The notes beneath the pieces were generated by a model. It saw only the letters and a list, made by a program, of their open reading frames with translations. It was not told where the DNA came from and searched no databases. A program made the position numbers and the translations under genes. Shown here piece by piece: positions 1,178 to 62,288 of a stretch of 64,000 nucleotides of DNA. Location: positions 12,218,529 to 12,282,528 of the forward strand of contig OZ038451.1 in NCBI GenBank assembly GCA_964036195.1, read 5' to 3'. Each line of letters opens with the position of its first letter. The first letter of the stretch is position 1. The stretch comes from Sphaerolaimus hirsutus (lineage: Eukaryota; Nematoda; Chromadorea; Monhysterida; Sphaerolaimidae).

Positions 1178-1485
1178 TAGTGATGGAAAAAGCGCCTGGA
1201 CGCGCCAAAAACGACATGGCGCTTTTCAAACCCCAGCGCCAAGCGCCAATGGTGCCGGAGCAATATGGCGCCAAAAGCGCCATGGCGCTTTTTGCTTTGG
1301 CGCCAGCGCTAGGCGTTTTGTTCCTGGCGCCACGCAAAAATAGCGCCAAGCGTTAAAGCGCCATGGCGATTTTCCGAGCCCCAGCGCGAAGCGCCAATTG
1401 CCCCAGAGCAATATAGCGCCAAGCGCAAAAAGCGCCATGGCGCTTTTTGATTTGGCGCCAGCGCCATGGCGCTTTTCCATCACTA
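1178..1485. mobile_element. hAT-like MITE with GCGCC satellite core
   Basis: The inverted ends are TAGTGATGGAAAAAGCGCC. The flanks are GCAGTAAC (1170-1177) and GTAGTAAC (1486-1493), an 8-bp duplication with one mismatch. The interior is an array of GCGCCATGGCGC-type palindromic units. The 8-bp duplication and TAGTGATG end point to the hAT superfamily; no transposase is encoded. Confidence 0.85.
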
Positions 1486-1501
1486 GTAGTAACCAATTGG
1501 G

Positions 1502-1652
1502 CACTAGTTTACCAACATGACATGCTCGACCATTTTGGTAAACTGTTTCATAAAACAGTTCGAAACACTGTACAACTCTGAGCTGTATTTCATACTGTTT
1601 TGTTCAAACAATTTACCAAAATGGTCTAGCACTTATGTTGGTAAACTAGTGT
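1502..1652. repeat. CACTAGTTTACC inverted-repeat element
   Basis: About 45-bp arms begin CACTAGTTTACCAACATG and meet round a short centre. Copies of the same design lie at 3351-3512 and 7784-7940. The right end runs into a short GT repeat. No coding potential. Confidence 0.7.
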
Positions 1653-1757
1653 GTGTGTGTGTCTTGTCTGCCGTGATCAATGCGTTTGATAAATGTAATT
1701 GTATAAATACGATAGTAATTGTATAAATACGAGATCACACTATCACAACGCAAAAAT

Positions 1758-2028
1758 GTGCTGGTGATCGGCCGTGATCTGCGGTGAAGTGCCTTCACGC
1801 AGACGCTCGCAGGCACTTCAACGCACTTCACGAATTTCTGATTTGTGTAAACAATTTAGTAATAAAATGTGTGAAGTGTCGGTGAAGTGCATTCCATCAG
1901 TGATCAGGCGTGATCAGGCTCTGAAGTGTGATCACGAGTGGTGAAGTGCCTGGTGATCAGGCGTGATCAGGCTCCGAAGTGTGATCACAAGGGCCACTTC
2001 AGACCACTTCAGTGCACTTCACGAGCAC
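1758..2028. repeat. Repeat with GATC/CACTTC palindromic units
   Basis: It starts GTGCTGGTGATC, ends TTCACGAGCAC, and is built from units such as GTGATCAGGCGTGATCAGG and AAGTGCACTTCA. A second copy in inverse orientation is at 13140-13340, which fixes both ends. This is another case of fixed ends around an array-like core. The 830 bases after it (2029-2859) hold no feature I can support. Confidence 0.6.
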
Positions 2029-2859
2029 ATTATTTGCTGTGTGACGACAACCAAAATCCATGGCAGGAACGCCATGGTTTGGCATTTCTGCCATTACACT
2101 TCTGCCAAACACGCGCAATAAAACGAAACTAAATGATCACGCACACACAAGCCGCAAGAACCGCAATCAACTGCGGCAAAAATTAACGCAACTGCGATGA
2201 ACTTTACAGCGTATGTGAATCATTTAAAATCTCACCCAATTTTTAAACACTCGAATCATTGCGCAGAATTTTAGGGAATTTCAGATTGTTTGAAGATTTG
2301 AGTAAATCGAAATGGCAATGGCTTCAACAAGCAACTGTTGTCTGGTATAATTCATATTTTTTCCACTTGTGTTCTGTTTGTAAATATATTGTAGCCGAAA
2401 TGTCATCAGAATGCAATTCCAGGTATTCGCGGCACTTGGATTCATTGCAGTTGACGCGCAGCCAAAAACCACTGTGTTTGTTTTGAATATTTATTTATCA
2501 GACTTGTGAGAGTGCATTTATGTTGATCCTGAGTGGTCTGGTATTACAGGTATTTACATTCATGGTTATCCTTACCTTAAGAAGATATAAAAATTTATTA
2601 CATTGGAAACAGATGAAGATAGATATGACCCAGAAACCAATAATGACGAAAGTGCTAGCACTTAGTTTAACCGTGTTCAAGAATCAGTATGAAAAATACA
2701 CGTTTTCCAGAGATTTCGACTGAAGCTCGACGGAAACGAAAGTGCAACAAATAAAAGCTAATCGAAACGGATCAACCGTCTACTACACTTAAAAAAGTGC
2801 ATCAAAAATATTCACGCAACTAAATATATCTCGCCCACCCGCACACAACTTCACCGCAG

Positions 2860-6590: not shown

Positions 6591-6596
6591 AAGGTG

Positions 6597-7522: not shown

Positions 7523-10500
7523 TCAATATCGGCAATTAGTGTTATATCTTTTAATATAATCAATGGCCGTGTCGACGTCCATCACGTCGAAGAACGCCTT
7601 GTCATTGCCGCCCACCAATGATCGCATGAGGTTTCTGTTCGCTGGCACCTTGCCAACCTGCCAGTTGGCTCCGCTAGTGTCAGGAGCGAGCACTTTCCTC
7701 ACTCGTCTGAAGGCCTGTTTTGGGGGGTTTAAATTGTGCTTTTTCGAGTATTTGTCAGCACAGACACTTTCATGTCCATTGGGCACACACACACACACAC
7801 ACACTAGTTAACCATTATGAAGTGCTCGACCATTTTGGCAAACTGTTTGCACAGAGTTGTACAGAATTTCATACTGTTTTGTGCAAACAGTTTACCAAAA
7901 TGGTCGAGCATTTCATAATGGTAACTTTGTGTGTGGACACATTACACCTCTAAATACCTGCGGGCTTCCCTTTTTGGGCGGCACGTGTCCGTCCCAGTCG
8001 ACGTCGCCGCCCACGACGAGCAGCTCGATGCCCGACTTGCGCAGGGCGGTCGCCACGGGCTCCGGGTCGGGGTAGCCGTTGCTCACGCGCCCGTCCGTGA
8101 ACAACATTGTCACCTGCTCGTTTGAAGAGATGTATTTTTCGTTTAGTATGGTGACGTTAACTTGCTGGCTCAATTGAAAGTGCTGCGTAGTTGATTCCGC
8201 AGACAAGTAAGGGACTAGAATAGTGGACTATGATACAAAAGTCATAGAGTGTTACGTCAAGTGGCAGGATACCTTATGTGATAAGTATTATTGTAAAATA
8301 ACTATAACTAGGTACATAACTATACTTATCACTAGTGATGTAAAGGCACCGGGGCACCGGTGCCCCGGTGCTGGGCACCGAAGGGCACCAGCACCGGTGC
8401 TGGTGCGGTGCCCTCACAATTTTCAGAGGTGCCCTGCCGGTGCCGGTGCTATTTTTTTCAGAATAGCACCAGTGCCGGTGCGGTGCGGTGCCCTTTTTTC
8501 GAGGGTGCCTTTAGGTGCTAGCACCGACCAGAAAAAGTGGGGCACCGGGAAAGGCACCGGCAGGGTTTCAAGGGCGTGAACTGCGGTTTATTCCAGGACA
8601 TGTGTGCTCATTTAAAAAGTGGCCAAAACAAATTCATGTTGATCATGTGCCCCTGGCCACTTTTTTATTGATTTTCTTTTGACAAACATAAAAACTAGCA
8701 CTTTTAAAGAAAACAATGATTGATTCTGAGTAGGATAAAAGTCATTCCGACGTGTCAGAAAGGTCGATGTTGTTAAAATCAAACATATACATCCTGGTCC
8801 TGGAGCCGAGTACTCCTGGCGCCGGCGAAAGCGCATGGAGTTGGTGCTCGCGCCAACACAAAAAGCGCCATGGCTCTTTTGGCTTCAGGTGCCATTTTGT
8901 TCGTGCTCAGTGCCATGGCGGTTAGCGCCATTCTGCCCTTGCGCCATAGATTTTGGTGCTGAGGGCTGGAAAAGTACCAGGGCGCTTTTGGCGCTTCCCG
9001 ACAAGGTCCTGGCACTTTGAATATCAATACGCAAAATGTTACCCGGTGCGGTGCCTTTCGGTGCTAGCACCGGCAACCCTCCGGTGCCCTTCGGTGCCGG
9101 TGCCATTTTTTTCAGCATGGCACCGGTGCCGGTGCGGTGCGGTGCCATTTTTTGGCCGGTGCCCCAGGGTGCCAGGTGCCCTTTTCACGCGATGGGAAAG
9201 GTGCTGGTGCGGTGCGGTGCCATTTTTCCCGGTGCCTTTAACATCACTACTTATCACTCTACTTATCGTAAATACTTGAATAAGCCCCCGCGAAAAAATA
9301 CCATTACTCAAATACTCGCATATTTTTTGAAGGTACGCGAATACAGAAAACGTAATTGAGACATTTTTGGGGTGCATAAAAACAAAAATTACTCAAAGGA
9401 ATTGAAACGACTGCAAAAATGGCAGCGGAAATGATAGAAGTTGCGATAGATAGGGAAAGCGACGACTCTCATTTTTACTTTTACTTTTACTTAGTTTTAA
9501 GTGTTTCTAAATGCAAATTCGAAAGCAATTCTTGCTTTTACGTTTTCCCATAGTAAAAATACTAATATTTACATTTACTCACCTTTTACGCAGCGTAAAA
9601 GGAAAAAATGTTTACTTTACGCTTTCTTTACTCAGGGTTGAATAAAAATGAAATACTTTACGTTTAAGTTTAGTTTGAAAAAAGTTCAACACTTTTAACA
9701 ACTCTGCCTACCTGTTTCGCTTTGCCCGGCCTACTACCATGCCACCAAGACTTGCTTGTGTTGAATTCGTCTCTCGCCAGCTCCAAACCGCCCGCTGTAA
9801 AATGTGAGTTTCCTAGATATCCTGTCTTTAATGATATGACCCCTGAACCGAACTAAGATCTTACCGATATCCGTCCATCCGCCGTAGTATGGCACGCTGT
9901 ACATTTCTCTGATTACGCTGTCAGCATCCTTGTGCTTCCGCAGATGGAAGTGACACTGTAAATAAATTTATGTTTATTTCGGTCATTTTTTGGCATTTGT
10001 GCATTGTTTTCCCATTGCAGTGTATTCCCTCAAATTACCCCCTTGAATTGACCCCCTCGAAATACTCCCAGTCCCCCAGGTGCCTGTCTCAAACCCTGTA
10101 AAACACCCTGTAAAATGTCATGTGTCATGTAAAAGACCCTGAAGTACCATCTGTATCCTAATCTTGTTCTATAGTATCTTAATCTTATGTGTTTTGTGTA
10201 CCGATATTTTGTTATTGTTATTTTAGGTACGGATTTGGATTTGGATTTCGAAGAAATACGGTAGTTTGAAATCTTATTCGCGCCAAGGATGCTGTTCAAC
10301 CAAAAAACTATGACAAACTAGCACACTTCCAATTGACCTGCGCAGTGACAAACAGATAACTGACCGTTGCGGCCCCCTTGGACGCGAACGTGATCATGGC
10401 GACCCGCGTGTGGAACGGAGACACGCGCAGCGCTCGCACCACCTTCTCGGCCATGGTCACGTATCGTTTGTGCTCGTGCTTGACGCTGCCCGAATAGTCG

Positions 10501-12853
10501 ATCACGAAGCACAGATCCAGCTCGCAGTCTACCGTATTGTTGGGAATGTGAGTGTTGAATGTGATACCGTATACTCTTGAATACGTCCAAGAGGAGTTCG
10601 TTTCTGGTTCGAGACTTTGGTTCGAGCTAGCCACCGCGGACTTTATTATTATTTTTTCTTCATGAATACAGCGACATTGTACAAGTGGGGGGGGGGGCTT
10701 ATTTCGAAGGGGTTATTTAGGCTTGTTCAAGAATCTGATAATTCTGACTAGTGATGTAGAAGCGCTATAGCGCTAGTGCCAAAGCAAAAAGGGCCATAAC
10801 GCCTCTGGCGCTAGGCGCCATTTTTCTCTGTCGCCATTGGCGCCTGGCGCTGGGGGTTGGAAAAGCGCCATGGCGCCAGTGTCCCGGCGCTTTTTACATC
10901 ACTAATTGTGTCACACAAATATCGATCTTCTATGTGAACTAGCTGCACTAGAGGAAAAAGCACTCGGCTGCATTGCAAGACTTTTATCGCACGCACCAGT
11001 TGTGGGGTCTTTTGTCGTCGTCGTTGTAGTTGTCGTTGTCGTAGTCGTAGTGGTCGTGGTCGGTTCTCTCGCCCGACAACCAATGTATTGTCTGAGAAAA
11101 CTTAAAGCTTCGCTCTGCGGGTTGGTCAGCACCAGTTCCGGGTCCCCGCCCGCCCATTCGATCAATTGCCGCCTGAATTGTCAACCGGTTTTTTTAGTTG
11201 ACTAACGGAAAATAAAGTCCGCGAACTCGCGCACCTGCCCCTATCGTTCAGAAAGTCGATGGCCGCCGCGGCGAATGTCAGCCCCTCTATCTGGTGCATC
11301 AACTTCGCAGCGGCATCGGCTCTAATCTCCTGATTGGGATCGGGCACGAGCCCGTCGCTGAGTAGAAACACGAATGTCTTGGCGGTTTTGCCCTCGAAGG
11401 TGCGCTCGCGCCTGTCCAAAAGCAGCTTTAACGCCGCTTCGAACGCGCTGCCGGTGGCCGTGCTGCCGCGCACGGCGCGCTGATTGTCGACGAACTTTAG
11501 GAACGCCTCATTTGTCTGCGTGGAGGTGTTGCTATGTTTGCGGTGCATTGCGTGACGTGTTTGATGCGGCCGCTCAGATGGGCGCCGGGTAGGGTGGCAG
11601 ACGGTACGGGCTTACGGTAAACCGTACGGTACGGTAAATCTTGTTAAATGCGATGCGCGGTACGGCACGGTAAATTTCTAAAAGTGCGGTTAACGGTACG
11701 GTACAGTAAATTTTCCAAAAATGCGGTACGGTACGGTGCGGTACGGTAAATTCTGCCACCCTAGCGCGGGTCGCGGCGCTTTGACAGCCGACCGAGAATT
11801 GCGCTCCTATATTTTTGCATAGACTTTTGGGAAGGCGACGCTGGAGTTTTTCGGCGGACCCATTCTCCGGATCCGTTGATCTCTGACTTTTCTGACTCTG
11901 GGCTCAATTTTCCGGTGCCTATCATCACCTGCCGAAATTGGCCTATGCACAGCGCAATCAATTGTGGCCACACCAGCTTGTTTCAATGGCCCTGCGCACA
12001 CTAGTTTTCACACGAAATTTCGAGAACTCAAGAATGAGCTTTGAACGTGTTTGAGTTTTTCACAATGGGTCATTTTTATCTCCGTCAACTGTATTTGATG
12101 GCCACCGTATTGTAGAAAACTCAAATGCGTTCTATGCTGCTCTGTGAGTTTTCGAAATTTAGTGTGAAAACTAGTGTGCGCAGGCACAATGGCTGATTCT
12201 CAATCATTCTTCAAACGGTCCAAAATTCAGTCCCACACAAACCTTAGCCTCATCGAAGCTGAGTGTATGGATAGGTCTGTTGATAGAGCCGTAATTTATG
12301 AGCGCCACCCGGTGCGCCCTGGGCCCAATGTTCAGCACGCTGGCTATGCTGTGGATGAAGGCACTTTTGCTGCTCCACGATTCCCCCGTGCTGCCGGACG
12401 TGTCCGCTGTGTGTATATAGGGTTACCGTATTTGATTGAATAATCCACCTGAAGAATTATTATTTCGTCAGACTTTTTCGAGGGCAAAAGTATTCAGTAT
12501 GATTTATTCAAGGGGTAGAATTATTATGTCCTCATAATTTTCAAGGATATTTACATCAAGTCATTTCATGAAATATGCTTTATTCACAAAATAACACACC
12601 ATTTTTGTTCAAATAGGACAAAACTACTTTATCCTAAGCCTTACGGGGGGAATGTTCAAGGGGGGTTATTTGTGCCTCACTCGTTTAACAGGGGGGGATT
12701 ATTCGAGTGGGGAAGCAAATGCAAGCAAATTCGGTGTGGCCCTGTTTGCGGACAGTTTGACGATTGTTTATGCTCACCGATGAATAGAATGTCGGTGAAG
12801 CAGCCGCGGTCTTTGTCGCCCGTTTGAGCCACAATTACCGCGAGCGTGGTTGC
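7523..12853 (-). CDS. Secreted protein with two vWA domains and a poly-Thr linker (gene B)
   Basis: Exons in transcript order: 12853-12778, 12406-12243, 11515-11235, 11172-10997, 10528-10365, 9955-9865, 9794-9712, 8113-7958 and 7714-7523 (stop). All junctions are GT-AG with matching phase. The first visible exon starts in frame with TTLAVIVAQTGDKDRGCFTDI, probably the end of a signal peptide; the Met exon was not found. Domain vWA1 has MIDAS residues DTSGS, Thr in STATG and SDG. Then comes a 16-Thr run followed by KDPTTG. Domain vWA2 starts DCELDLCFVIDYSGSV and has GGWTDIAGG and FTDG, so both metal sites look intact. The protein ends NTNCRY. It aligns along its whole length with gene A, its upstream neighbour on the same strand, so the two are tandem duplicates. 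It has one extra 70-bp intron (9795-9864) splitting the GG-LELA region that gene A keeps in one exon. vWA domains usually bind matrix or other protein ligands outside the cell; the partner here is unknown. Confidence 0.85.
7784..7940. repeat. CACACACTAGTTAACC hairpin element in gene B last intron
   Basis: The inverted arms match the copies at 1502 and 3351 (AAGTGCTCGACCATTTTGG and inverse). The left edge is extended by an AC microsatellite. Confidence 0.6.
8333..9249. mobile_element. hAT-like MITE with GGCACCGGTGCC core plus a GCGCC block
   Basis: The ends TAGTGATGTAAAGGCACCGG and GGTGCCTTTAACATCACTA are flanked by a perfect 8-bp duplication CTTATCAC (8325-8332, 9250-9257). Both outer arms are arrays of GGCACCGGTGCC. 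The middle has a unique segment and then a separate GCGCC array (about 8810-9015). It lies in the gene B intron between exons 9794-9712 and 8113-7958. Confidence 0.9.
9262..9707. repeat. CAGAGTTGTTAAAA-ended repeat, right part
   Basis: The end CACTTTTAACAACTCTG is at 9691-9707, four bases from the gene B splice donor at 9711. The interior is runs of GTAAA/TTTAC units. The same end appears at 19204, 31557-31573 and 53079. Confidence 0.5.
10020..10263. mobile_element. R2 element in gene B intron, with a CCCTGTAAAATGTC insert
   Basis: The right end GAAGAAATACGGTA is intact; the left end is degenerate (TATTCCCTCAAATTACCCC). A short block of the TGTCA-unit family sits inside. Confidence 0.55.
10749..10904. 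mobile_element. Short hAT-like MITE with GCGCC core
   Basis: It starts TAGTGATGTAGAAGCGC and ends GCGCTTTTTACATCACTA. The flanks ATTCTGAC and ATTGTGTC match at 6 of 8 positions, so this is an older copy. It lies in the gene B intron between the linker exon and vWA2. Confidence 0.75.
11590..11763. mobile_element. hAT-like MITE with CGGTACGGTA core
   Basis: The inverted ends TAGGGTGGCAGA enclose an array of ACGGTACGGTA. The flanks GCGCCGGG and GCGCGGGT match at 6 of 8. It is in gene B intron 2, 75 bp upstream of the exon starting at 11515. The end is close to that of the element at 23808, which has a different core. Confidence 0.75.
11992..12183. repeat. CTGCGCACACTAGTTTTC inverted-repeat element
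   Basis: About 35-bp arms with CTGCGCACACTAG ends; CAATGGC occurs just outside on each side, suggesting a target duplication. It lies in gene B intron 2. Confidence 0.6.
12424..12735. mobile_element. R2 element filling gene B intron 1
   Basis: The left end TACCGTATTTGATTGAATAA is clear and the right end is degenerate (GCAAATTCGGT). The intron runs 12407-12777, so the element is most of it. Confidence 0.6.
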
Positions 12854-12907
12854 CTGTTTTTGGAAAGCGTTTTTGTAGATTCAACAATCATGCAATTTAT
12901 CAAAGAG

Positions 12908-13023
12908 TGATGGAATGGCGCCACGGCGCCGCGCCATTTGAGGGCGCCATTGGCGCTTGGCCACCGGGCGTCAGGCGCTCTGTTTTTGAATGGCGCCATA
13001 AGGTCCTTCTTCCGTGGCGCCGT
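12908..13023. repeat. GCGCC-array fragment
   Basis: It starts GTGATGGAATGGCGCC, as in the element at 34147, but the right end is lost. Probably a truncated MITE. Confidence 0.5.
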
Positions 13024-22000: not shown

Positions 22001-25000
22001 ATGGAAAAATTGAGTGTGATGATAACTTGAGTTTCGACGTCGAGCCTGGACAAGATCCAGTGCCAAATAGTGAATTGCCTATAAATGATCATGACCCTTG
22101 CCATGTGTATGTTACCGAATTTCACCACCGAATTTCACAGCTCTACAATGATAATCCCGGTGTGTTTGCTCGATGGCAGTCCAATTTTGTCCATGCATTA
22201 CCAATTCTCACACAGAGCTCTGCGAGACACGAGTGGGAGAGTTCTTCAACAATGTGTTTCAGCACTCCGAAGACTCCGAATCTAAATCAGAAATGTGATC
22301 ATTTGACAGAGATGGGATCAAAAGATTTTTTGGGTACTAGAGGTGGTGATATTATTTCTGGACTGTTGTGCTCGGGTCATTCCAATAATCATGAATTTGG
22401 CGGTTTTTCGGTGCAAAATGGAATTTCTGCCCACAGTTCAGTGGGCTCTAATCAGCAATTGTGTATTTCAATTAAGTCTAGCAATGGCCCACTAGTTTAT
22501 GCCACAATCAACATAGAAGGTGTTCCATGCAGGGTTTTGCTTGACAGCGGTTGCACTAGATCATTGTTACCTTTCCATTTGTTTGAAAAAATTGCAGCGC
22601 AGGCCAAAATCAACATGGAAAAGTCATTGGTGAAGTCCAAAATCGGCCCAAGTACAGTGAATGGCATGACTAAAGAAGGGGAATTGTCTGAGATATCGCT
22701 TTATGTGGATCATGTCAGCCCAGTGGTTCGAGTCCGACGAAAAGTCGTCGCAACTTTTCTTGTTAATCACAATCCGCTCGCTCTTTCTGAGATTTTGTTA
22801 GGAACTGACATAATGCCATTCCTCAAATTGACATGGTTGATTCCCTTGGTTTTAGATAAAAAATGCGATGCCAAAATACCTGTTGATCATCCTGAAGTGG
22901 TTCAGCAAGTAGTCCAGGATGAAAAGAAATTCAACTCACTTTTTTCTGAATTGGTCATGACTACGAAATCGATTTTTGTTCCAGCACATGGAGAGATGTC
23001 TTATTCTGTTTCTTTGCCACAGCGCCCGACCAATATTGACCCTGAAAAATGGGTGGAATCAACGCTGATATTTTCAAACACGGAAACGTCGTTTACAGGG
23101 TTGTCCATGTATAATACATCAGTGGCTATTCGGAGCCATCAGAAATGTACATTAAAATTATTCAATTCAAACCCTTTTCCAGTGAATCTACCCAAGAATA
23201 AAATTTTAGCTCAATTGGATGTTTATCCAAACTCGGCGTTCCATTCACCAGGCCCCAAATTCTCAGGAATTTTTGGTTCTCCTGCACACGCTGCAGCCTT
23301 TGGGATCTTTTCAGAGGGGGATGAAATCAACGAAGTTGTGGCTGCGTCATCGTTGACGTTGCCGACCCCTCCAGTTGATGAAACGGTAGACAAGCAAGAG
23401 ACCCAAAAAATTCCAACCACGCCCTCTGAGCGTGCTGAACATGTTTGGAATAAATTGAAAGATGACATTCAAATAAATTTGTCTGATAACGAGAAAGAGC
23501 AGTTTTTCAAATTAATTTCTGATTTCCATGACGTTTTCAGTTGTGCAGACTATGACGTCGGCAAAACTTCATTGCTATCTCACAAGATCATCACAGATCC
23601 ATCTCAGCCTCCCATTAAGCAGGCCGCCAGGTATGAGGCCAGACATAAAAGACCGTTTATCCATAAAACCATAGCTTCCATGCTCAAAGAAGGAATCATC
23701 GAACCGTCCAACGGAGCGTGGGCATCCCCCATACACATCACGCCTAAGGGAGTTACTGAGTGCAGATTTTGCGTCGACTTCAAATTAATCAATTTGATAA
23801 CCAAGATTAGGGTGTCAAAAAAATTTTTTGACGGGAAACGGAAACGGAAACGGAAAAAAACTTTCAGCGGCCGGAAAACGGAATGGAAAACGGAAAAAAA
23901 TTTGCACTTGGCGGAAAACGGAAACGGAAACGGAAAAAAAATTTCAGTGGCCGGAAAACGGAAAAAGGGGCCGGAAAAACGGAAACGGAAAAATGGAATT
24001 TGCATGGAAATGGAAAAATTTGCTGAAATTTTGCCAAAAAACATGATAAAATTCGCTGAAATTTTGCTGGAAACAGTATTTTTTTACATAATTGACAATC
24101 TGCACAACTGTTTACCAGTTTGGCTGGACCAGAAAACAGAAAGTTGAGCCAGAAAAGGGTAAAATAAGGCGGAAAGCAGAAAATTGAGGCGGAAAACGGA
24201 AAAAAGGCGGAAAAACTGGAAATTGAGCCAGAAAACGGAAAAAAGGCGGAAAAACGGAAAATTTAACCGGAAAACGGAAAATGAGCCGGAAAAACGGAAA
24301 TGGAAAAAAAGGTGGCCGGAAAACGGAACGGAAAACGGAAAAAAAATTTCAGCGGCCGGAAAACGGAACGGAAAACGGAAAAAATTTGCCTGCGGAAAAC
24401 GGAAACGGAAAACGGAAAACGGAAATTTGACACCCTAACCAAGATAGATTCATATCCACTTCCACGCATTTCAGAAATTTTATCTGAGTTTTCTGGCAGG
24501 AAAGTATTTTCAGCGTTAGACATTCGGCATGGATACTATAACGTGCCGCTGGCCGATGAAGACACATGCGAGCGCACTTCGTTTGTGTGCAGCCTGGGTC
24601 AGTTCAGGTATACTAGGCTTCCATTTGGTACAGTGAACGCGGGTGCGACTTTCATGCGTCTCATGCAGCTAATTTTGTCAGGATTGAATGATGATCCGAC
24701 CTCGCCTTGGGTGCGCGCATATATCGATGACATTTTGTGCAGTAGCTTCACCATTGAGGATCATTTTGTGCATTTGAGAAAGTTGTTTGATAGATTGAGA
24801 TGGGCCAACTTGAAAATCCAACCGGCCAAATGCAAATTTTTCGCATCCGAGCTGAAATACCTGGGACATCACATATCTTCTTCTGGCATTTCTCCAGCTC
24901 CGGCCAGATATAAGGCGGTGGTGGAACAGCCCAAAGTGCACTCAAAACAGGATCTGCGACGATTTTTAGGGAAATGTATATACTATTCACACTTCATTCC

Positions 25001-33968: not shown

Positions 33969-34019
33969 AGTGTTTAGTTCGCGAATGGCTGTATGTTTAG
34001 GTTGTATTTATTTTTTATG

Positions 34020-40882: not shown

Positions 40883-40954
40883 TGCCTATTACGCACATAA
40901 ACCCATCACGCACATATGCCCAACAAGCACACCTCTCAGTTGTGTGCGTAATGC

Positions 40955-41284
40955 TGTAAAAGCGCCATGGCGCTGGAGCTAGCACTAGAGCAAAAAGCGC
41001 CATGGTGCTTTTGGCGCTTGGCACCATTACGTTGTGGCGCTATTGGTGCTTGGCTCCATGCTCTTGAAAAGCGCCTTGGCGCTTGGCGTTATATTTGCCC
41101 GGTGCCAGGAACAAAATGCCTGCCGCTGGCGCTTTGTGCTAGCGCCAAGCAAAAAGCACCATGGCGCTTCTGGCGCTTGGCGCCATTTTGCTCTGGCGCC
41201 ATTGGCGCTTGGCGCTAGGAGTTAGAAAAGCGCCATGGCGCTTTTGGCGCTTAGCGCCACAGTCCTGGCGTTTTTCACATCACT
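40955..41284. mobile_element. MITE with GCGCC core
   Basis: The right end GTTTTTCACATCACTA is good; the left end TAATGCTGTAAAAGCGCC is mutated. No convincing target duplication. It sits within CGCAC-family repeats. Confidence 0.65.
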
Positions 41285-41289
41285 AGTGA

Positions 41290-43365: not shown

Positions 43366-45126
43366 TACCGTATTACCTCGAAATACCCCCAGGGGGTTTA
43401 TTATTTTGCCAGCAAAATTTGAGGGGAGGATAACTCGAGTGGGGGGGGGATTATTCGAGGGGGGGTCTATTATTTCGCCAGAAATTTTCGGAAATTCCCC
43501 ATACGCAGAAAACTCGAACAATCACATAGATTTATATGTGTTTATAGGCATATATTACTGTTAGTGATGGAAAAAGCGCCAGACTTTTGGCGCCAAGCGC
43601 CAAAAGCGCCATGGCGCTTTTCTGACCCCCAGCGCCAAGCGCCAATAGCGCCAGAGCAAAATAGCGCCAAGCGCCAAAAGCGCCATGGCGCTTTTCTGAA
43701 CCTCAGCGCCAAGCGCCAATGGCGCCAGACGGTAATGGCGCCAAGCGCCAATGGCGCCAGCGCCAAACTTTTTTTCTGCAATTCGTTTGTAGAATAATGA
43801 ATTCGTAACTGCGACATGCCGCTGATGTCATATTTAGTAGTCGATTTGACTTTTGCCATCAAAGTTCAATCAAGTACTTACAATGTTTTATACATTGTTA
43901 AAATCCCAAACGGGGGGTTAAACGAGGGGGGGGTATTTCGAGGGGGGGGGGGGTTAATTATTTCGCCAGAAATTTTTTGAAAACCAAGTACTAAATTGTC
44001 GTCTGAAACGTACGCAGACGTCGAAAATGCAACAAAAATCGCCATTTATAAGACTCTAAAGACTTGTATAAGTGTGTAGACGTATAATCACTGTTCTCAC
44101 ATAATAGAGTCATCGTTTTTAACGTGTGTATTGCATTACCCAGATGACAAACCGCAGCCTTTGTCATTTACGTTCTCTATACACTAAATTTGGGGGGGGG
44201 TATTTCGTGGGGGGGGGTTTATAAGTTCATAGTGTCCATTTTGAGGGGGGTATTTCGACGGGGGGGGGGTATTTCGAGGGGGGGGGTATTTCGAGGAAAT
44301 ACGGTAGATACCTATTTTTCAGCCAAACAGCCGTACATTGATAGGTCCTACTATATACCATTTACCTAGTCATGTTTGTTACCAGTTATGGGTATCTAAA
44401 TGCCTATTCTTTACATGATCCTATCCAAAAATTCGTGGAGAAAAAATAAACCCCTCCCTCGAAATACCCCCCTCAAAATTTGCACTCTGAAAAAATAAAC
44501 CCCCTGGGGGGATTTTGAGGAATTAGGGTACCTATATACATTTGCCCCAAATATTACCTAATCAATATTTAATAAATACCCCCTTACACCCTTATATTTA
44601 TCAATATTTATTCAGTTATTCTCAAACTTGATCAACTGGTTTGTCGATTTTCACCTAATGATAAGAATTTTATAATCACAGTTGGCGCTTTTTTGGCGCT
44701 TTTTTAAATGCCAGCGCCAGGCGCCAATAGCGCCACCAGGAAATGGCGCCTAGCGCCAAAAGCGCCACGGCGCTTTCTCAGATCCCGGCGCTAAGCGCCA
44801 ATGGCGCCAGAGCGTTTTAGCGCCAAGCGCCAAAAGCGCCATGGCGCTTTTTGCTTTGGCGCTAGCGCCAGGCGCCAGCGCCATGGCGCTTTTCCATCAC
44901 TAATTACTGTATATACACAAAAACCCTTCCCTAACGTCACTTGATCATCAGTTTTAACGTGTGTTCTGCATAGTAAAGATCACAAACTGCGGTATTTGTC
45001 ATGTACGTTCACGTTACACTCAATTTTAGGGGGGGGGGTTATTATTTCCTCAGCCGAAATTTAGGGGGGTATTTCGAGGGGGGGTTAATTCAAGGGGGGG
45101 GGGGGATAATTCGAGGTAATACGGTA
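43366..45126. mobile_element. R2 element split by a GCGCC MITE
   Basis: Left TACCGTATTACCTCGAAATA, right GAGGTAATACGGTA. The two outer parts add to about 420 bp, the normal size. Confidence 0.8.
43562..44902. mobile_element. hAT-like MITE with GCGCC arms and a nested R2
   Basis: Ends TAGTGATGGAAAAAGCGCC and GCGCTTTTCCATCACTA; perfect 8-bp duplication ATTACTGT (43554-43561, 44903-44910). Array arms at 43562-43780 and 44683-44902. The 900-bp centre includes another R2 copy ending at 44306. Confidence 0.9.
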
Positions 45127-48713: not shown

Positions 48714-51700
48714 ATGCGCTACGCTCGTCGGTTTGAAGGGGCGGACTTCGGCGCGGATGGGGGGTCAGGTGAGCGAGTGTCGGGTGTCTTTTTGGGTCTT
48801 CTTCGATTGGTTTGTTTTTGTGCAGCCTAAGGGGTGTTCGTGGGGAGGATGACCCTCCAAATTGGCCAACCATTTATCCATCCCTAACCCCAACGATTTT
48901 TCATTTAACTAACCCCCGCAAGGGTCAAAATCCTGGAATCCCCTATGAGCAGGGACGTATTGAGGATTTTTGTGCGGGGGGGGGGTGCTTGTTTACGGGG
49001 GCCGGCGAGCGGGGGGGGGGGGGCTCAGCCCCCCCCCCCCTTAATTTTTTCCCTATATAGGGACAAATAGCGTTTTGGCGCTAGCGCCATACAAAGGCGT
49101 CATGCCATGGCGCTTTTGGCGTTGGCGCCAACGCCGGGAACCGCTTTATATGTATGTAAATATGCATACATATACAGCGAAATTCGCAAAAATGTGTTCA
49201 TTTCCATGGATTTTGGTTCACAGGGCCGATCCGCTTAAAATACAATGAATGGGGAAGAAATTGCGCGCTTGCGCGCAAAATTTTTAACAAACATCGAAAA
49301 ATATATAGAAAAAGTCGCATTTTCCTTGACTTTTTTGGTCTCACCCCGGGAAGGGGGAGGGGCTGCAGCCCCCCCCCGCCCCCCCCCTGGATACGTCCTT
49401 GCCTGTGAGGTAAAAGTGACAACGGTTTGACAGTTCCAATGAAATTCGAAGTATTTCATAATTGCATTGGTCGCATGCATTAAAAATATCGAACTACAGC
49501 CGTGTCACCCCTGGAATTCGTCGTGTAAATAGCAGGATCTTTCGCAGAATTTCTCGCTGCTATATCTATGTAATATCGGTAATGCCGATTCACGCACACA
49601 CACCCTTCACCGCGCAGAAACCGCGACCCTGATCCCGATCGAGCCGCCGTATGCGGACGTAGATGGTGAACGGAAACCAGCGCAGCAGACTTCCCAAGTG
49701 TCCAGTCTGGGCAGCGAGGTCGCGTTCAGCGTGCGCTTCTCCGCCGTGGTGACGTTCTGTTGCGCGCTGCCCGCCGTCGGCATGCTCGTGTGCGTGGCCA
49801 TCGCCGTCAGAGTACACTTTGCACGCAGCACGAGAACACATTGCGGGGTGTGTTTGGGTTAGGGTTAGAAAAAAGCAATTTTTTAAAGCCTTGATAAAAA
49901 ATCAATTTGAAAAAGATTTTTTTCAATTCAAATAAAGCTTTTTTCAAAATCATCCAAAATGGGTGTATAGAGAAAAAATATTTGTATGTTAAGTGTCAGA
50001 CAATGTGTTGTTATGTCTATTGTGGTCATATTAGGACTGTGTAGTTATGGGGTAGCATTATAAGCGGTTATTTCTTTCAAAAATGTCAAAACAAACCCTA
50101 CCCCGATCCAACAATAATTCCAGGTGCCCAACTACCTGCCATCTATCTCGGCGGCCATAAGCGATTTCTCGCCCGAACGCTACATCTGGCGGTTGGCTAT
50201 CGCCTTACACAGCCTGCCCCGTTTCGTGGTAGCTTTGATGTACCGCAGTCTTTACCACGGCCGCGCCGCGACGCTGCCGCTGCGCCGCGTGGGGTCCGCC
50301 TTTGTGTTCGGCTTGGCCGTGGACACGCTGGTCGTGTTGCATTTCGTCGAGAACTTCGCCCTGCTCACGCTGACGTTTGTCGGCTCGTCGGAGAATTTCC
50401 GTGGGTTTTTTTGTTGGCTTTTACCAGGAGTCTGCGATGTGGACTGGGAGCAGGGACGTATCCAGGATTTTTGAGCGGGGGGGGGCTGCTTGTTTACGGG
50501 GCCCGGCGAGGGGGGGGGGGCTCAGCCCCCCCCCCCCTAAAATTTTAGCTACATTCTGGCGGAATGGCGCCATGGCGCTGGCGCCATTAGTAGGCGCCAC
50601 GCCATGGCGCCTTCGGCGTTGGCGTCAGCGCCATGGAACGCTGTATATGTATGTAAATATACATACAAAACAGCAAAAAGCACAACATTTTTAATGATTT
50701 GCGGCCACATGGAGCAAATCTGATGATAATACCTTATATCTGGTGAAGAATGCGCGCTTGCGCGCAAAAAATTTTACGCTGACATTGAAAAAGTCGCATA
50801 TTCTGGTCACTTTCTGGTCTCGCCCCGGGAGGGGGGGGGGCTGCAGCCCCCCCCGCCCCCCCCTGGATACGGCCCTGACTGGGAGGGAGGCTGCCCCTCC
50901 CTAAATGTCCCAGCTTTTTATCTGTCTATTTGTTTATCTTGCGGTAAATGTTTGAACAATTTTGCTTTGCAATTTGATTTTGACCCGAAAACTATATTTT
51001 TTTTTACAAATAGATTATTATCGACTATTCTAAGCTACATATGTATTTCTTTAACTATCTTCTTTGCTACATTTCATGTAGTTTTGGTGATTTTTCTCCC
51101 TCCGAAAGGATATAAATTGAACCCCCCATTCAAATTTTCAACAAACTATTCCTCTGATGGAGCGATTTGCTATGTTTCTGAGCCACGCGAGGTTCGAGAA
51201 ATCCTGAAACCCATTGTCTTTACCTATCCATTGACCACTTGCCGCACTTTCAGCGGTGCATTCGAGCAGTTTTGGACTGTTCGTCGTGTGCAGCATGCTG
51301 TATATGGTGCTCAACACTTGTTTGTTCGACTATTCGGGTCTGAGACGGAAATGGATTTACAGGGTACGCTGTTTTTGTGTATAATACATAGTTACTTGAA
51401 GTAGGGTTCAAACGATATATCGTATCGAATATCGGATATCGACCATTTTTTAATATCAAATATCAATATCGAAAATTTTGAAAAAATATCGAATATCGAA
51501 TATCGATATCGAAAATTTTGAAAAAATATCGAATATCGATATTGAATATCGACCATTTTTTCGATATATCGAACCTGTATTGTGTCCCCAAATTTACTTT
51601 TCATTTTCATTTTGAGATGTTTATGGTTGATCTGATGTGCTTATAGTATTGTATTTGATGAGTAAAAGTACAGTATTTATAATGTCATTGTTGTTGGAGT

Positions 51701-52554
51701 GCTAAATTTTGAAGCCAGAAAACGCTGATATACTTTTTTTTGCAGCATGCCCTTAAGCAATTAGGTTAGGATGAACTGTAATATCTACCAATTGTTATTT
51801 GTCTGATACACTTTGATTCATCATGTTTTTTTTCTATTTTCTACCATTGAGTGATGTAAAGCTTGTTAAAATCACTTGCACCATTCAAATTTCAGTAAAG
51901 AGATGATTAAACATGTGTGCAACCACACGAAAATACAATATGCCACTTGAAATATGCCTTGCTATACCAAAAGTATATCGCAATATCGAATATCGAAAAT
52001 ATCGAAATATCGAATATCGAATATCGACCATTTTTCAATATCGAATATCGATATCGAGGTTCCATATCGTATCGATATCGAATATCGAGTTTCAGAAAAA
52101 AATATCGAATATTGATATCGAAAAGTCATATCGTTTGAACCCTAACTTGAAGTCACGAACATTTGACAAAAGGCGATGATTTATGTAACGAGTTGACATA
52201 AAAAGTTATTTTTGACAGAAATCACCACTTGTAATGCTATCCCGTGGCTCCACAGCCATTATGTGGCTATATTTAACATCACAAATGCTGAGACTTGTCC
52301 GATATACCTGTATATGTTGACACACAACCATATTTGGAAGCTTTTTAAAAACGTGTTTTTAAACAGGGTCGATAAAAACATTTTCTTCCATCCCTACTAT
52401 TTTATAACCACAGTATACGGAGCGCAAAACGTGGAAACTTTACAGGGCGAAAAATCGTTTCAGCACAAAATAATCTTCCTAGCTATCTGCATTGTGTGCA
52501 TTTTGCTCAGCGCGTATTTCTACTGGCGGCACAATGAATATTGTGAACCCGGAG
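48714..52554 (+). CDS. PGAP2: PGAP2 / FRAG1 family, GPI-anchor remodelling factor (3' end missing)
   Basis: Exons: 48714-48768, 49618-49847, 50124-50400, 51254-51363 and 52446-52554; phases agree. Met at 48714 gives an N-terminus like known PGAP2; an upstream in-frame Met near 48653 is possible. Recognisable stretches are VRFSAVVTFCCALPAVGMLV (first membrane segment), HCGVPNYLPSISAAI, ERYIWRLAIALHSLPRFVVA, VENFALLTLTFVGSSENF and YFYWRHNEYCEPG. The family works in the Golgi or ER on lipid remodelling of GPI-anchored proteins. The last exon (normally VYTxFA... with the final membrane segment) was not found. Reading on past 52554 meets a stop at once. Every intron carries at least one MITE. Confidence 0.88.
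48950..49401. mobile_element. CAGGGACGTA-ended MITE, PGAP2 intron 1
   Basis: Ends CAGGGACGTATTGAGG and CCTGGATACGTCCTTG; 8-bp duplication CCTATGAG/CCTGTGAG (7 of 8). G-run and C-run arms, a short GCGCC array near 49075-49130, then AT-rich text. hAT-like by end and target size. Confidence 0.85.
50451..50877. mobile_element. CAGGGACGTA-ended MITE, PGAP2 intron 2
   Basis: Perfect 8-bp duplication ACTGGGAG (50443-50450, 50878-50885). Same layout as the first copy, with a GCGCC array at 50565-50640. Confidence 0.92.
51402..52144. mobile_element. hAT-like MITE with ATATCGATATCGA core, PGAP2 intron 3
   Basis: Ends TAGGGTTCAAACGATAT and inverse; perfect 8-bp duplication ACTTGAAG (51394-51401, 52145-52152). 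Arrays of ATCGAATATCG at each side of a 370-bp AT-rich middle. It sits in an R3 repeat; the R3 copy at 35.7 kb reads through the same target without the element. Confidence 0.95.
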
Positions 52555-52603: not shown

Positions 52604-52854
52604 CAGGGACGTATCAAGGATTTTTGAGCGGGGGGGGGGCTGCTTGGTTACGGAGGCTGGCGAGGGGGGGGGGGGGGGGGCTCAGCCTCCCCTAAAATTT
52701 TAGCTAAATAGTGGCGGAATGGCGCCAAGGCGCCATGGCGCCATTCCGCCACTATGGAGCTAAAATTTTAGGGGGGGGGGGCTGAGCCCCCCCCCCTCGC
52801 CGGCCTCCGTAAACAAGCAGCCCCCCCCGCTCAAAAATCCTGGATACGTCCCTG
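52604..52854. repeat. Palindromic inverted dimer of a CAGGGACG-element arm
   Basis: Both halves are the left arm (CAGGGACGTATC, GCGGGGGGGGGCTGCTTG, CTAAAATTTTAGC), meeting at a GGCGCCATGGCGCC centre. No target duplication is visible. It starts 50 bp past the last visible PGAP2 exon. Confidence 0.8.
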
Positions 52855-53181: not shown

Positions 53182-54487
53182 TAACGATGGCAAAAAAGAT
53201 TCGAAAATTCGAAAACATTTTCGAATTTTCGAATTTTTTCATAATTTTCGAATTTTTATTTCACCCCTAGAAAAAACACTTAAAAATCGATTTATTTTTC
53301 AAAAAATTCGAAAATTCAAAAATTCAAAAATACTTTTCAAATTTTTCAGGGGATTCAAGGCAACAAAACGTACTCTTTAGTTCAACGTGCTCAATAAATT
53401 GACAATTGGTACGCGGTGCGTATGAAAACGCGAAACAAAACAAAAAAACGTCCAAAAACGTTGAAATGTAAAATGCCCTGTAAAATGTGGAATGTCATGC
53501 AAGTGTCAAAGGTTATGAAAATGTCAGGGAAAATGGATAACATATTTGTAATTTTCCACAGCATTTCCATCACTTTAGACACTTTGCATAACATTTGACA
53601 TTTCACAGAGCATTTTACAGGTGTCTGGGACGGCCCACAGGAACTGCACATATTTATAAGTATACTTGGTGAACATGATACTCTGCCATCGTACTGATTT
53701 ATTGCTCATGTTGGAAGCGTGCCAATAATCATAAAGCATGCTATTTTTGTATAAAATATGAAAAAATCATTGTTGTGAATAAGTTAACGTATCACGTTAT
53801 AACTGAGATGAATTCTTTCAACTTTTTATAAAAATCACATGCGTAGAAAAATATTTGGCACGCTTCCAGCGGGGTCTAATGTTACTGGAGTATAAAAGAG
53901 ATGTGATCAAAGATATTATCAAAGAAGAGTGGTTTGAGAAGTACTTACCTGTATCTTGTGAAGTTAGCACTGTATGCACTGAGTGCTCTCAGTGCGCTAT
54001 ACTCAGGCGACATTACACTGTACATTTTTCTGGAGGTAACACTCCATCATGACATCATAACCGCAGTTGGCAGTGAACTTACGGCTCACTGAACCGGTTC
54101 AGAGTTGGGATGAAGTGGAGTGGAGTGGGGATCCGGTTCACAAGTTGTCGGTTGGCTGTCTGCCAGCCGAAGACATAATCATATCTATTTGTAGAGTATC
54201 ATATCTGCCACTTCTGAGTATAGCCACTTCCAAAACAGCCCAAATTCTTCATTTAAAACTTCAGATTCAATATTTTTACAAAAAAAATCGAAAATTATTT
54301 GAAAAAATTCGAAAAATAGCCAAAAAAATTCGAAAATTGCCAAAAAAGATTCGAAAATTCGAAAATTCAAAAATTAAATTCGAAATTCGAAAATTCATTT
54401 CAGGAAAAATTAGAAAATTCGAAAATTCATTTCGGAAAAAACACTTAAAAATTTAAATACTTTTTTTTGGAGGGTTTGCCATCGTTA
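53182..54487. mobile_element. hAT-like MITE with TTCGAAAATTCGAA core
   Basis: Ends TAACGATGGCAAA and TTTGCCATCGTTA; perfect 8-bp duplication AACGTGAG (53174-53181, 54488-54495). Arrays of TTCGAAAATTC at both sides. The middle holds a TGTCA-unit repeat (53460-53630) and a small foldback with GGAAGCGTGCCAA arms (53711, 53855). The surrounding CAGAGTTTTTAAAAG repeat starts at 53079. Confidence 0.92.
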
Positions 54488-59327: not shown

Positions 59328-59387
59328 TTTTTGGTGTTTATTATAGGTTTGTATCCTGTCGTTGCACACTGGAAATGTGGAATACTA

Positions 59388-59393
59388 AATAAA
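59388..59393 (+). terminator. LYAR polyadenylation signal
   Basis: AATAAA 60 nt past the stop codon. Confidence 0.75.
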
Positions 59394-59600
59394 GATTTCC
59401 AGTGTGCTGCGCACTGAACTGTGTCATCTCAGTCTGTTATCGAATCCGACACTTGTTGTGTTTTAAGCGAAATTCGGGTATTTGCGCTCGTTTTGGAAAG
59501 TTGTTAAATGAACAATACCTTCTCACTCATAAATACGCTTATCGTACATCACATAAATACTACGTGTGTCGTCTACGTGTCGCACAGTTCCATCACAGGC

Positions 59601-59834
59601 CCACACACGCTTGTTGTCATCGCAAATTCGTGTCAACTAAATGACAAAAAAACTTTTGAAAGCATCATCACACTTAACAGAAGCAATGAAAATTACGTGT
59701 CATGATGTTCTAACTGAACGAAATAGTGTCTCCTTGTGTCGTGAAATTAACTATGCTCTATCATATAGGAAAGTTGAAATCAGAATTCACAACAATTTAG
59801 TTGACACTAATTTAGTTGACATTCAGCGTGTGTG
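59601..59834. repeat. CCCACACACGCT inverted-repeat element
   Basis: Ends CCCACACACGCTTGTTGTC and TTGACATTCAGCGTGTGTG; same type as 62468-62612. Lies between LYAR and TM2D1. Confidence 0.55.
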
Positions 59835-60041
59835 ACGCCATCAATTCGGAACATTATTTCAACTTTATAACTTATATATTATATAACTTGTATATAACTA
59901 TATATTTTAACTATAACATTTATATACCATACAGCACTTCCCCCCAGTCAGTCGCCCCTCAGCCGGCCTACCTCCTCGCCAGTGCAAGCCGCCGCTGCAC
60001 GACTGCGGCAAAGTGCTCGTGTCGTTCGGCCGGCGGCCCGG

Positions 60042-62288
60042 ATGCGGCCGTACCTGTTGGTCGCGCTCATGACCGCAGCTGCAGCCGTGCGCGCCCAGCA
60101 GCGTCGCAGCCGCGGTGACGGCGACGCGGCGGAGGCGCGCCGAGTTGGCGCGCTGCCAAAGTGCTCAGATCTGAGACCCGGCCAGTTGGTTATGGTGTGA
60201 ATACTGTGTTTTGGCGCAGTTGGCATTCGTGAAAAGAAAAACACTTTGGAGTAAGGCTGACGTACGCCAGTGTGTATGTCTTCGAACTAGGGATGAAAAA
60301 AACGATTTTTCAACGATTTAAAAAACTTTTCTTGAAGGGTGTTTTAAAGTAGGTATTTGGGGAGTATCATTCTAAAAATGCATATATCCAAGTTTTTCGA
60401 TTTTTCAAAATCGCATTTTAAAGTTTGACGCTGGCCCGACGACGCAATTTGGGAATGTCTGCACATTTTTTGAAAACAAAAAACAAAAAAGCGCTTTTTA
60501 AATAAAACTTGATCATTGAAAAAAGCGCTTTTTTCCTCTCTACAGACAACTCATTCTAGAAAACTCAAATCTGTTGAAAAATAGACAGACAGGCACAAGG
60601 ACCCACAAACCGCCCATTCCCCGCGCAGGTACTTCTGTCCCGAGTTATCGCTACCTTCGTACCAGCGCACAAGTCGGTGCGGCGCGGACGGTCTGACCAG
60701 AATACGCTGCCTCGCCGCGCCCGGCATCAAGTGCGACGGCCTCCAGCGGCCGGCTAACGAAACTGAGTTCTTCGAGCGGCTGCTCGGCTGCACGCCGGTG
60801 GGCGACAAGGACTGGCACGTGGCGCTCATGTTGTCTGTGTCCGGCGGCTGGCTCGGGCTTGATAGGTTCTATTTGGGCTACTTTGCCAGTGGTTGGTGAG
60901 GGGGTGCCGTGTTTGGTCGTTTTGGTCGGTGTGTGGGGTTCAAACGGGGTTGACGTTTCGGGATCGGGATTGTTTTTCTGGATCGGGATCGTGATTAGGG
61001 TTCAAACGGGATTGACTTTTAGGGTTCAAACGGGAACGGGATTGAATCGGGATCGGGATTGGCCGGGATTGGGGGCACGGGATCGGGATCGGGATTGGCA
61101 TTTTTTCGGGAACGGGATTGAATCGGGATCGGGATTGGCCGGGATTGGGGGCACGGGATCGGGATCGGGATTGGCATTTTTTCGGGATCGGGATTGGGGT
61201 CTGGGGATAGAGATTTTGGCCAATGTTCTGGCATCCACAGTTGTTCATAAAGGTCTCAAAACACTTTTGGATGCCGGAAAATTGGCAAAAATGTCATTTT
61301 TTCACTTTTTATTATTTCCACTAATTTTTAAGGGATCGGGATCCCGGACTGTGGAGTTTCTCGGGATCGGAATTTAAAAATTTTCTGGATCGGGACTGCT
61401 AAATCCCGGAATTTCACGGGATCCGGGATCGGGATCCCGTTTGAACCCTAGTCTTTTCGTGATTGACCTTTCTGGATCGGGATCGTGATTGTTTTTTTTT
61501 TGAGATTTCGGGACGGGATTGGGATTTTTAACATTTCGGGATCGAGATTGCGATTTTCAAATTTCGGGATCGTGATCGAGATTGAGCTTTCGGAATGGGG
61601 ATCTTGACCACAAAATCCCGCAATCGGAATCGGGATCCTATCGGTGCGTTGAGCTGCGATGCTGCATAATTTATACCCGTCTCTCATTTGCAGGCCTGTT
61701 TAAAATGCTCACATTCGGTTGCTTTCTTTTGTGGCACCTAGTCGACATCGTGCTCATAGCGTTACAGGTCGGTGTTGAAGTGAACTCTTCTGTTCAAAAT
61801 AATTTTTTGTGAATAATTGACTGTAGAATGTGGCTTTGCTGCTGGTGCTGGCAAAAACGTATTTTTTACAAATAAAACTGTCAGATATGGTTGTGTCAAC
61901 ACGTGATGTTGACGCGTGATCAGACAAGTGATGTTATAAATAGCTTTACATTGCATGTTGGTCCATGATATGGCATTATAAGTGGTGATTTCTGCCAAAT
62001 GGAGCTTTTACACTACAAGACCAATGAATATATCCACCAATACTAATTTGTGTGTGAAAATGCAGATTGAACAAAAAAATAAGCGAAATTTAATACTTGA
62101 TTAATATTTATAAATATGAAAAATGCATTAAGTGGTCACTTTTATACCAAGTACCGATCAGCATTTAATCGCACACGTATCCGCAAATGTAGATCCTGCA
62201 ACCGGCGGACGGTAGCGCCTACGCAATGAACGACATGGCGCCGAGACACTTGCCAGTGCACCTGACAAATCACACGTATTTCAGTTAG
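60042..62288 (+). CDS. TM2D1: TM2 domain-containing protein 1
   Basis: Exons 60042-60184, 60629-60891, 61694-61767 and 62193-62288 sum to 576 nt, 191 residues and a stop; phases all agree. Met at 60042 opens a signal peptide (MRPYLLVALMTAAAAVRAQ). The luminal part has KCSDLRPGQYFCP and further Cys, then the TM2 domain: VALMLSVSGGWLGLDRFYLGYFASG and LFKMLTFGCFLLWHLVDIVL, with the DRF motif between the two membrane segments. The tail ILQPADGSAYAMNDMAPRHL matches the TM2D1 C-terminus rather than TM2D2 or TM2D3. The family (fly bisc, amrt, amx) acts on intracellular membranes; the exact role is unsettled. Intron 2 is filled with a GGGATCGGGATTG satellite element. Confidence 0.95.
60290..60542. 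repeat. TAGGGATGAAAAAAACG repeat in TM2D1 intron 1
   Basis: It starts TAGGGATGAAAAAAACG, like the end of maize Ac, and ends AGCGCTTTTTTCCTCTCTA. No clean target duplication. Part of the R3 group. Confidence 0.45.
60934..61660. mobile_element. GGGATCGGGATTG satellite element(s) in TM2D1 intron 2
   Basis: Starts of type TAGGGTTCAAACGGG at 60934 (TGGGG variant), 60996 and 61020, and one inverse end CCCGTTTGAACCCTA at 61450. The array is GATCGGGATTGG. The 13-base end TAGGGTTCAAACG is the same as in the element at 51402, whose core is ATATCGA. Several starts and one end suggest nested or rearranged copies. Confidence 0.75.

Follow-up and report, generated by a model that had tools for sequence, protein, structure and literature searches.

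Satellite-like cores of hAT-type miniature elements in a nematode contig as predicted arrays of transposase-binding sites

Introduction

What are the satellite-like cores of short inverted-repeat elements, and why can one type of end enclose more than one of them? The question is raised by a stretch of the Sphaerolaimus hirsutus genome (contig OZ038451.1, assembly GCA_964036195.1, positions 12,218,529 to 12,282,528 of the forward strand; 'the window' denotes this whole stretch of 64,000 nucleotides), in which elements bounded by terminal inverted repeats (TIRs) are filled with arrays of short repeated words. A first-pass annotation of the window proposed that short hAT-type ends repeatedly capture new arrays or grow them, that ends and cores combine freely, and that every subfamily thus pairs an end with a satellite of its own. 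The models reviewed for the birth of short satellites invoke mainly capture, slippage and recombination. It is already known that arrays ride on miniature inverted-repeat transposable elements (MITEs), as in Xstir and miDNA4 (PMC12628747), and that binding sites lie in repetitive TIRs, as in Galileo (PMC3688188), with the same idea put forward for Tetris (PMC4079207). Here we propose that the satellite-like cores are probably amplified subterminal sites for a BED-finger transposase, a proposal drawn from sequence in which binding is deduced from the words.

Results

Duplications and tips point to hAT-type insertion

The elements below were identified by reading the sequence and by scanning it for inverted ends flanked by 8-bp repeats (no strand is assigned except where one is given; the fraction after 'flanks' is the number of matching positions in the 8-bp flanking repeats).

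E1, 1178..1485: TAGTGATGG ends, GCGCC array; flanks 7/8
E2, 8333..9249: TAGTGATGT ends, GGTGCC/GGCACC arrays on both sides, decayed GCGCC stretch at 8805-9005; flanks CTTATCAC 8/8
E3, 10749..10904: TAGTGATGT ends, GCGCC array; flanks 6/8
E4, 11590..11763: TAGGGTGGCAGA ends, CGGTA array, period 36; flanks 6/8
Fragment, about 12905..13017, + strand: truncated TAGTGATG-type left end (GAGTGATGGAATGGCGCC) with GCGCC words
E5, 23808..24437: TAGGGTGTCAAA ends, CGGAAA array, period 40; flanks ACCAAGAT 8/8; within a gypsy-like pol frame
E6, 34147..35077: TAGTGATGG ends, GCGCC arrays on both sides, period 74; flanks ACGTGAAC 8/8
E7, 40949..41285: decayed TAGTGATG-type element, GCGCC array; flanks 3/8
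E8, 43562..44902: TAGTGATGG ends, GCGCC arrays on both sides, period 74; flanks ATTACTGT 8/8
E9, 48950..49401: CAGGGACGTA ends, short GCGCC cassette; flanks 7/8; TIR complete at 49401
E10, 50451..50877: CAGGGACGTA ends, GCGCC cassette; flanks ACTGGGAG 8/8
E11, 51402..52144: TAGGGTTCAAACG ends, ATATCG arrays; flanks ACTTGAAG 8/8
E12, 52604..52854: palindromic CAGGGACGTA element (third copy), GCGCC centre; flanks 2/8
E13, 53182..54487: TAACGATGGCAA ends, AATTCG arrays; flanks AACGTGAG 8/8
E14, 61020..61450: TAGGGTTCAAACG ends, GGGATC array, period 76; flanks 3/8, or 6/8 if both ends are moved one base inward
E15, 60935..61640: probable older copy hosting E14, TAGGGTTCAAACG-like left ends (60936, 60998), GGGATC array

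The ends and cores reported in the first-pass annotation are present; E13 (a new family), the decayed E7, E12, the truncated fragment, the probable host E15 and a class with inverted AAGT arrays, described below, are additions. The end types are TAGTGATG-type (six elements and the fragment), TAGGGTG(G/T)CA (two), TAGGGTTCAAACG (two and the probable host), TAACGATGG (one) and CAGGGACGTA (three). The array words are GCGCC, GGTGCC, CGGTA, CGGAAA, ATATCG, AATTCG and GGGATC, that is, words of 5-8 bp separated by A/T-rich spacers, lying head to tail by eye and, in most families, grouped into higher units of 36-76 bp. The TIR elements span 156-1341 bp, and their coding content was examined in part. 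All results apply to one 64-kb window with few elements per end type, and several of the comparisons were made post hoc.

The flanks match at 6 or more of 8 positions in 11 of 14 elements and at all eight in seven (the misses being E7, E12 and E14), as compared with rates of 0.58% for 6/8 and 0.009% for 8/8 in random 8-mer pairs from the window. Among the 11 elements of the first-pass annotation the count is 10, bearing out its claim of 8-bp target duplications in most of them. In a set of ten elements (nine from that annotation, without E9 and E14, plus E13), the eight duplicated positions match in 9-10 of 10 elements and the six positions on each side in 0-6 of 10; the best duplication length is 8, and no other length from 4 to 12 matches equally. 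For E5 the interrupted sequence can be read directly: the open reading frame (ORF) at 20218-24147 reads LINLITKI and then enters the element, the ORF at 24285-26810 reads TKIDSYPLP on leaving it, and the duplicated ACCAAGAT encodes TKI on both sides. The gypsy-like retroelement that E5 splits extends over 20218-26810.

The hAT tip consensus is YARNG, and the left tips TAGTG, TAATG, TAGGG, TAACG and CAGGG fit it in 14 of 14 cases. The hAT target consensus is nTnnnnAn; position 7 of the 8-bp targets is A in 8/10, and position 2 is T in 3/10 and C in 6/10. By eye, TA directly precedes the 8-bp target in 5/10 E elements, a possible target preference. Together, the duplications and tips support the earlier claim of hAT-like insertion. 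We regard the elements as non-autonomous hAT-type MITEs, an assignment that is based on target-site duplication and tip rather than on a transposase, and that is probable as part of the proposal for the cores.

Array words fall within the repertoire of hAT BED-type fingers

In hAT transposases an N-terminal BED finger reads short subterminal repeats; for Hermes the word is AAGT, followed by an AT-rich neighbour, and exact phasing is needed (PMC10368747). Proteins of the hAT BED/CGGBP type usually bind CGG or CGC, some bind GCGC and some AT-rich words, most have a specificity of their own, and the words of four hAT-encoded proteins match the subterminal regions of their own elements (PMC8097297). 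In the window, CGG occurs at 58-98 per kb in E2, E4, E5 and E14 vs. 21 per kb overall, GCGC occurs at 30-71 per kb in the five GCGCC elements vs. 5.4 per kb overall, and ATATCG and AATTCG are AT-rich words; the words therefore lie within the hAT BED/CGGBP repertoire. Because the E-class words and the AAGT class resemble hAT sites, we take the cores as predicted binding arrays, and we infer binding from that resemblance.

According to this proposal, the transposase that moves the element would bind the short word through its N-terminal BED-type finger, a matching transposase would be present in the same genome, and arrays would grow through local tandem duplication, with units of 36-76 bp in most families. 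A change in finger specificity would lead to replacement of the word across the array (GGCGCC by GGTGCC in E2), the tip, which another part of the enzyme would read, would be retained during the replacement, and different cores under one end would represent sister lineages split by word specificity. If the cores are docking sites, these mini-satellites are working parts of the element, not stray repeats that it picked up, and one can predict from each core which word an enzyme of this genome binds. They would also form a DNA-side record of the rate at which transposase-finger specificity turns over, a question raised by the diversity of CGG-, GCGC- and AT-binding hAT-derived proteins.

In the TAGTGATG group, words and spacing are mostly kept while spacers drift

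In much of the TAGTGATG group the words hold both a position relative to the tip and a spacing. At 11 of 12 TAGTGATG ends the distance from the tip to the start of the first GC(G/A)C is 14 or 15 bp, and the twelfth has ACGC at 15; in E2 this first tip-proximal word is part of GGCACC at both ends (all by eye). Lags of 74, 42, 32 and 16 bp are clear in E6 and E8, weaker lags of 74 and 32 bp are present in E1, E3 and E7 (in E1, 73 and 75 exceed 74), and E2 has lags of 75, 43 and 32 bp.

We compared units of these arrays with a 74-bp frame, the consensus of the E6 array (the unit from Tandem Repeats Finder, not an exact copy). Units were picked by best ungapped fit, which favours aligned words, and we therefore used an order-shuffle control. 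In three E8 units and one E7 unit, identity to the frame is 94-97% for the seven GGCGC words vs. 44-62% for the spacers; the corresponding values are 80% and 46% for E3, and 63% and 49% for E1. Order-shuffles as good as the observed fit numbered 0/1000 for each of E8 left, E8 right, E7, E3 and the fragment on its + strand, and 1/1000 for E2 right, for which the fit by word identity alone is weaker (40/1000). The values for the fragment reversed, for E10 and for a 36-kb cluster were 76/1000, 394/1000 and 963/1000.

These results bear on the explanation that the satellites merely hitch-hike, growing by slippage and unequal exchange within MITEs with no role in transposition, so that word changes reflect neutral homogenisation, an explanation put forward for Xstir in Xenopus. 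Tandem duplication typically leaves higher-order units such as those of 36-76 bp here, tandem repeats inside MITEs are well documented (PMC12628747; PMC9659126), and the frame is lost in E1, all as hitch-hiking would have it. However, homogenised 74-bp units would affect words and spacers equally, whereas in E8 and E7 the two differ sharply in identity, and the first word is near-constant in place at TAGTGATG ends. The TAGTGATG group keeps word and spacing while the intervening DNA drifts, which neutral homogenisation does not predict, and we consider hitch-hiking unlikely.

Derivation of the spacers from the TIR was tried and rejected: in 10/10 elements, a set without E3 and the CAGGGACGTA elements, the TIR aligns locally with its own array interior no better than with shuffles (60-299 of 300 did as well). 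Among 8 arrays (28 pairs), there is no spacer homology between E4 and E5 (27/60 shuffles as good); E11 and E14 give 0/60, but six pairs with different ends do likewise, and shared AT-runs therefore suffice for the match. As a post hoc observation on which we base no claim, TTTCAG and TTTCTG are 2-3 times denser in spacers than elsewhere and are absent from several families.

Array spacing follows end type in the TAGTGATG group

Lag profiles of the arrays correlate with a mean of 0.33 within end types vs. 0.00 between them (12 elements, without the CAGGGACGTA elements and the F, G and H arrays, and with E15 placed in the TAGGGTTCAAACG group), a difference reached in 3/10,000 label permutations; of the 19 pairs within an end type, 15 come from the TAGTGATG group. 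In that group array spacing thus follows end type, at odds with a free combination of ends and cores.

The capture model itself, in which hAT-type ends repeatedly take up pre-existing satellites, can draw on real mismatches. E11 and E14 have a common 13-bp TIR and E4 and E5 a similar one, yet word and period are unrelated within each pair, as the first-pass annotation noted for the words; the GCGCC word lies under two end types, TAGTGATG-type and CAGGGACGTA; and a capture model has been proposed for miDNA4 in Xenopus (PMC12628747). For the two pairs, capture and full replacement may both be possible. Against capture, the TAGTGATG arrays have one common frame, including the E2 right array, and six of the seven words have few or no arrays outside elements in the window. 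Clusters of at least three GGTGCC, CGGTA, ATATCG, ATTCGAA or GGGATC words occur inside elements only (counting the host at 60935-61640 as one). The check proposed with the capture model, for free arrays of the same units, was thus negative in the window for these five words but returned one cluster of CGGAAA (57814-57858) and six of GCGCC, one of which (12917-13017) is the truncated element with left end GAGTGATGGAATGGCGCC. Long free head-to-tail arrays, as of a satellite proper, were not found in the window, the arrays being short and nearly all within elements. We consider repeated capture distinctly unlikely.

E14 illustrates a different complication. It has the TAGGGTTCAAACG ends and GGGATC array first described for it, but the array and TAGGGTTCAAACG-like left ends continue outside 61020-61450, and the element seems to sit in an older copy, E15, whose right end was looked for and not found. 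A stretch of 90 bp holds three TAGGGTTCAAACG-like left ends (60936, 60998, 61022), interspersed with and surrounded by GGGATC words, as nested or tandemly duplicated ends.

A word may have been replaced within a kept frame

E2 was described as a TAGTGATG-type end around a different core. The GGTGCC/GGCACC arrays are indeed there, but the element also holds a decayed GCGCC stretch (8805-9005). Its right-array unit matches the 74-bp frame at 39/74 positions, with GGTGCC or GGCACC in place of GGCGCC, and so fits an inherited frame with another word rather than a free combination; its left array does not. GGCGCC and GGTGCC differ by one transition. The E2 lag profile correlates with those of the five GCGCC elements at 0.10-0.28 only. 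We tentatively suggest word switching in a fixed frame, in which a MITE lineage would keep its tip and spacing and replace its word, so that the core records past transposase specificity; this is a possibility that we hold less firmly than the docking-site proposal. If it is true, the families in which one end has several cores preserve, like a fossil series, how BED-finger specificity changed, and short satellites originate as binding-site arrays.

The GCGCC array ascribed to the CAGGGACGTA elements is present as GCGCC words, although as a short cassette, not a long array. The cassettes of E9 and E10 align with each other, and the E10 cassette has 28 bases identical to the head of the E6 array, including GGAAT, which lies outside the repeated word (score 39; top of 200 block shuffles, 38). 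Four of 33 cassette-array comparisons were at 0/200 shuffles. These alignments are as expected of one ancestral transfer, rather than of free combination. The centre of E12 reads TAGTGGCGGAATGGCGCC...GGCGCCATTCCGCCACTA, resembling the TAGTGATGG end, although its symmetry proves nothing because this copy is a palindrome. We favour a single old event, the nesting or transfer of a TAGTGATG-type array head, as the source of the GCGCC cassette in CAGGGACGTA elements.

Several results weigh against the docking-site proposal and its extension to word switching. The data had been inspected before the 74-bp frame was fitted, and the frame fails in E1 (188/1000, with words at 63%), E2 left (97/1000) and E2 middle (865/1000). 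Word switching within a kept frame is shown in one case only, and there is no shared array spacing in E4/E5 (r -0.13) or E11/E14 (r -0.03). Phasing relative to the tip is lacking in E4 and E5, where the distance of the first CGG varies (by eye, about 13, 18, 25 and 16 bp), and AATTCG is missing, again by eye, from the initial 45 bp at the right end of E13. The E-class arrays extend through the whole element instead of being confined near the ends, and in the CAGGGACGTA elements the cassette lies at the centre. Finally, there was no transposase among the 14 ORFs scanned of the 44 ORFs of at least 120 aa in the window.

A second class carries inverted AAGT arrays

The window also contains candidate elements with inverted, not head-to-tail, arrays.

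F1, 5785-6590: inverted array of AAGT-containing words
F2, 18165-18590: inverted array of AAGT-containing words
F3, 32205-32640: inverted array of AAGT-containing words
Further second-class element, 16725-17583: inverted array of AAGT-containing words

In F1-F3 all 57 AAGT sites, 25 on the left and 32 on the right, point inward, and over all F and G arrays AAGT occurs at 46 per kb vs. 10 per kb elsewhere. F1-F3 have different words (AGAGTAAA, GTTAAGAGTAAA and GTGTAAAGTCAAATG) and a common additive spacing grammar of 7, 12, 19, 31, 38, 50 and 69 bp (r 0.81-0.91). These inverted AAGT arrays are reminiscent of the subterminal repeats of Hermes and Tol2 (PMC10368747).

Inverted arrays, with arms of 118-145 bp in F1-F3, are also what might be expected if the elements belonged to another superfamily with duplications of about 8 bp and repetitive ends (P/Galileo, Foldback or MULE), the arrays then being foldback-end structure. 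The long TIRs of Galileo are internally repetitive and contain several THAP sites (PMC3688188), and in Tetris the TIRs contain repeats and the duplications are 8-10 bp long (PMC4079207). In the E class, however, the TIRs are short, the tips fit the hAT consensus and the arrays run head to tail, and the long inverted repeats of tandem units that define Foldback, Galileo and Tetris are absent. This alternative is very improbable.

Relation to known systems

Hermes, Tol2, Ac and Herves resemble the E class in having 8-bp duplications, short TIRs, short repeated words near the ends and, for the TAGTGATG group, phasing of the words relative to the tip (PMC10368747). Unlike in those elements, here the words fill long tandem arrays across the element, and no coding part was seen in the ORFs scanned. 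The E-class words differ from the AAGT of Hermes and from the Herves transposase site, C(G/A)ATTCAT (PMC3143072), and are like the CGG, CGC/GCGC and AT-rich words bound by CGGBP and related hAT proteins (PMC8097297), although those are proteins, and none of the kind was seen among the ORFs scanned here.

Xstir, miDNA4 and Tetris are like the present elements in carrying tandem repeats in TIR-ended non-autonomous elements (PMC12628747; PMC4079207), but miDNA4 is Tc1/mariner and Tetris has units of about 220 bp in long TIRs. For Xstir, miDNA4 and Tetris, the available portions of those papers describe no case in which one end encloses several words with the frame retained. Galileo, a foldback-like member of the P superfamily, also has several transposase (THAP) sites in repetitive ends, but its TIRs reach 1.2 kb and its transposase is of P type (PMC3688188). 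Among the literature matches listed, judged by title and opening of the abstract, there was no set of hAT-like MITEs with one end and several binding-site-like arrays, and no word change in a kept frame.

Candidate relatives in public viral contigs were rejected, the pattern matches being judged chance. The TAGTGATG pattern occurs in one viral contig, where the downstream stretch reads as a resolvase-type gene. The TAGGGTTCAAACG pattern with a loose tail occurs in at least 120 viral-contig stretches, and 58 of the 60 contexts among the matches listed are one recurrent gene-like sequence. The GGGATC pattern has two viral-contig matches, one of which (L122:5815-5995) has a short GGGATC-type array of its own, judged unrelated, and the ATATCGA and GCGCC array patterns have no viral-contig matches.

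Other features of the window

The window has about 43% GC and no CpG depletion (observed/expected 1.04), and looks eukaryotic in character, with a gypsy-like pol (reverse transcriptase, RNase H and integrase domains) and a vWA domain. Minus-strand ORFs with vWA-domain matches lie at 10308-11611 and 33639-34007, one match being over the Pfam cutoff (10308-10712) and two under it. A homologue search with the ORF at 31335-31943 gave no match. At 28364-29733 there is an element with long inverted repeats, CATAGGGGATTT ends and 8-bp flanks GTCACAAC (8/8), in which no word array was noticed. An 84-bp tandem repeat (46263-46438; 2.1 copies, 97%) is unrelated to the E words. Scattered CCCCCCCTCGAATTA / GGGGGGTATTTCGAGG runs recur in the window, for example at 34030-34084, 37073-37127, 44245-44296 and 45064-45101.

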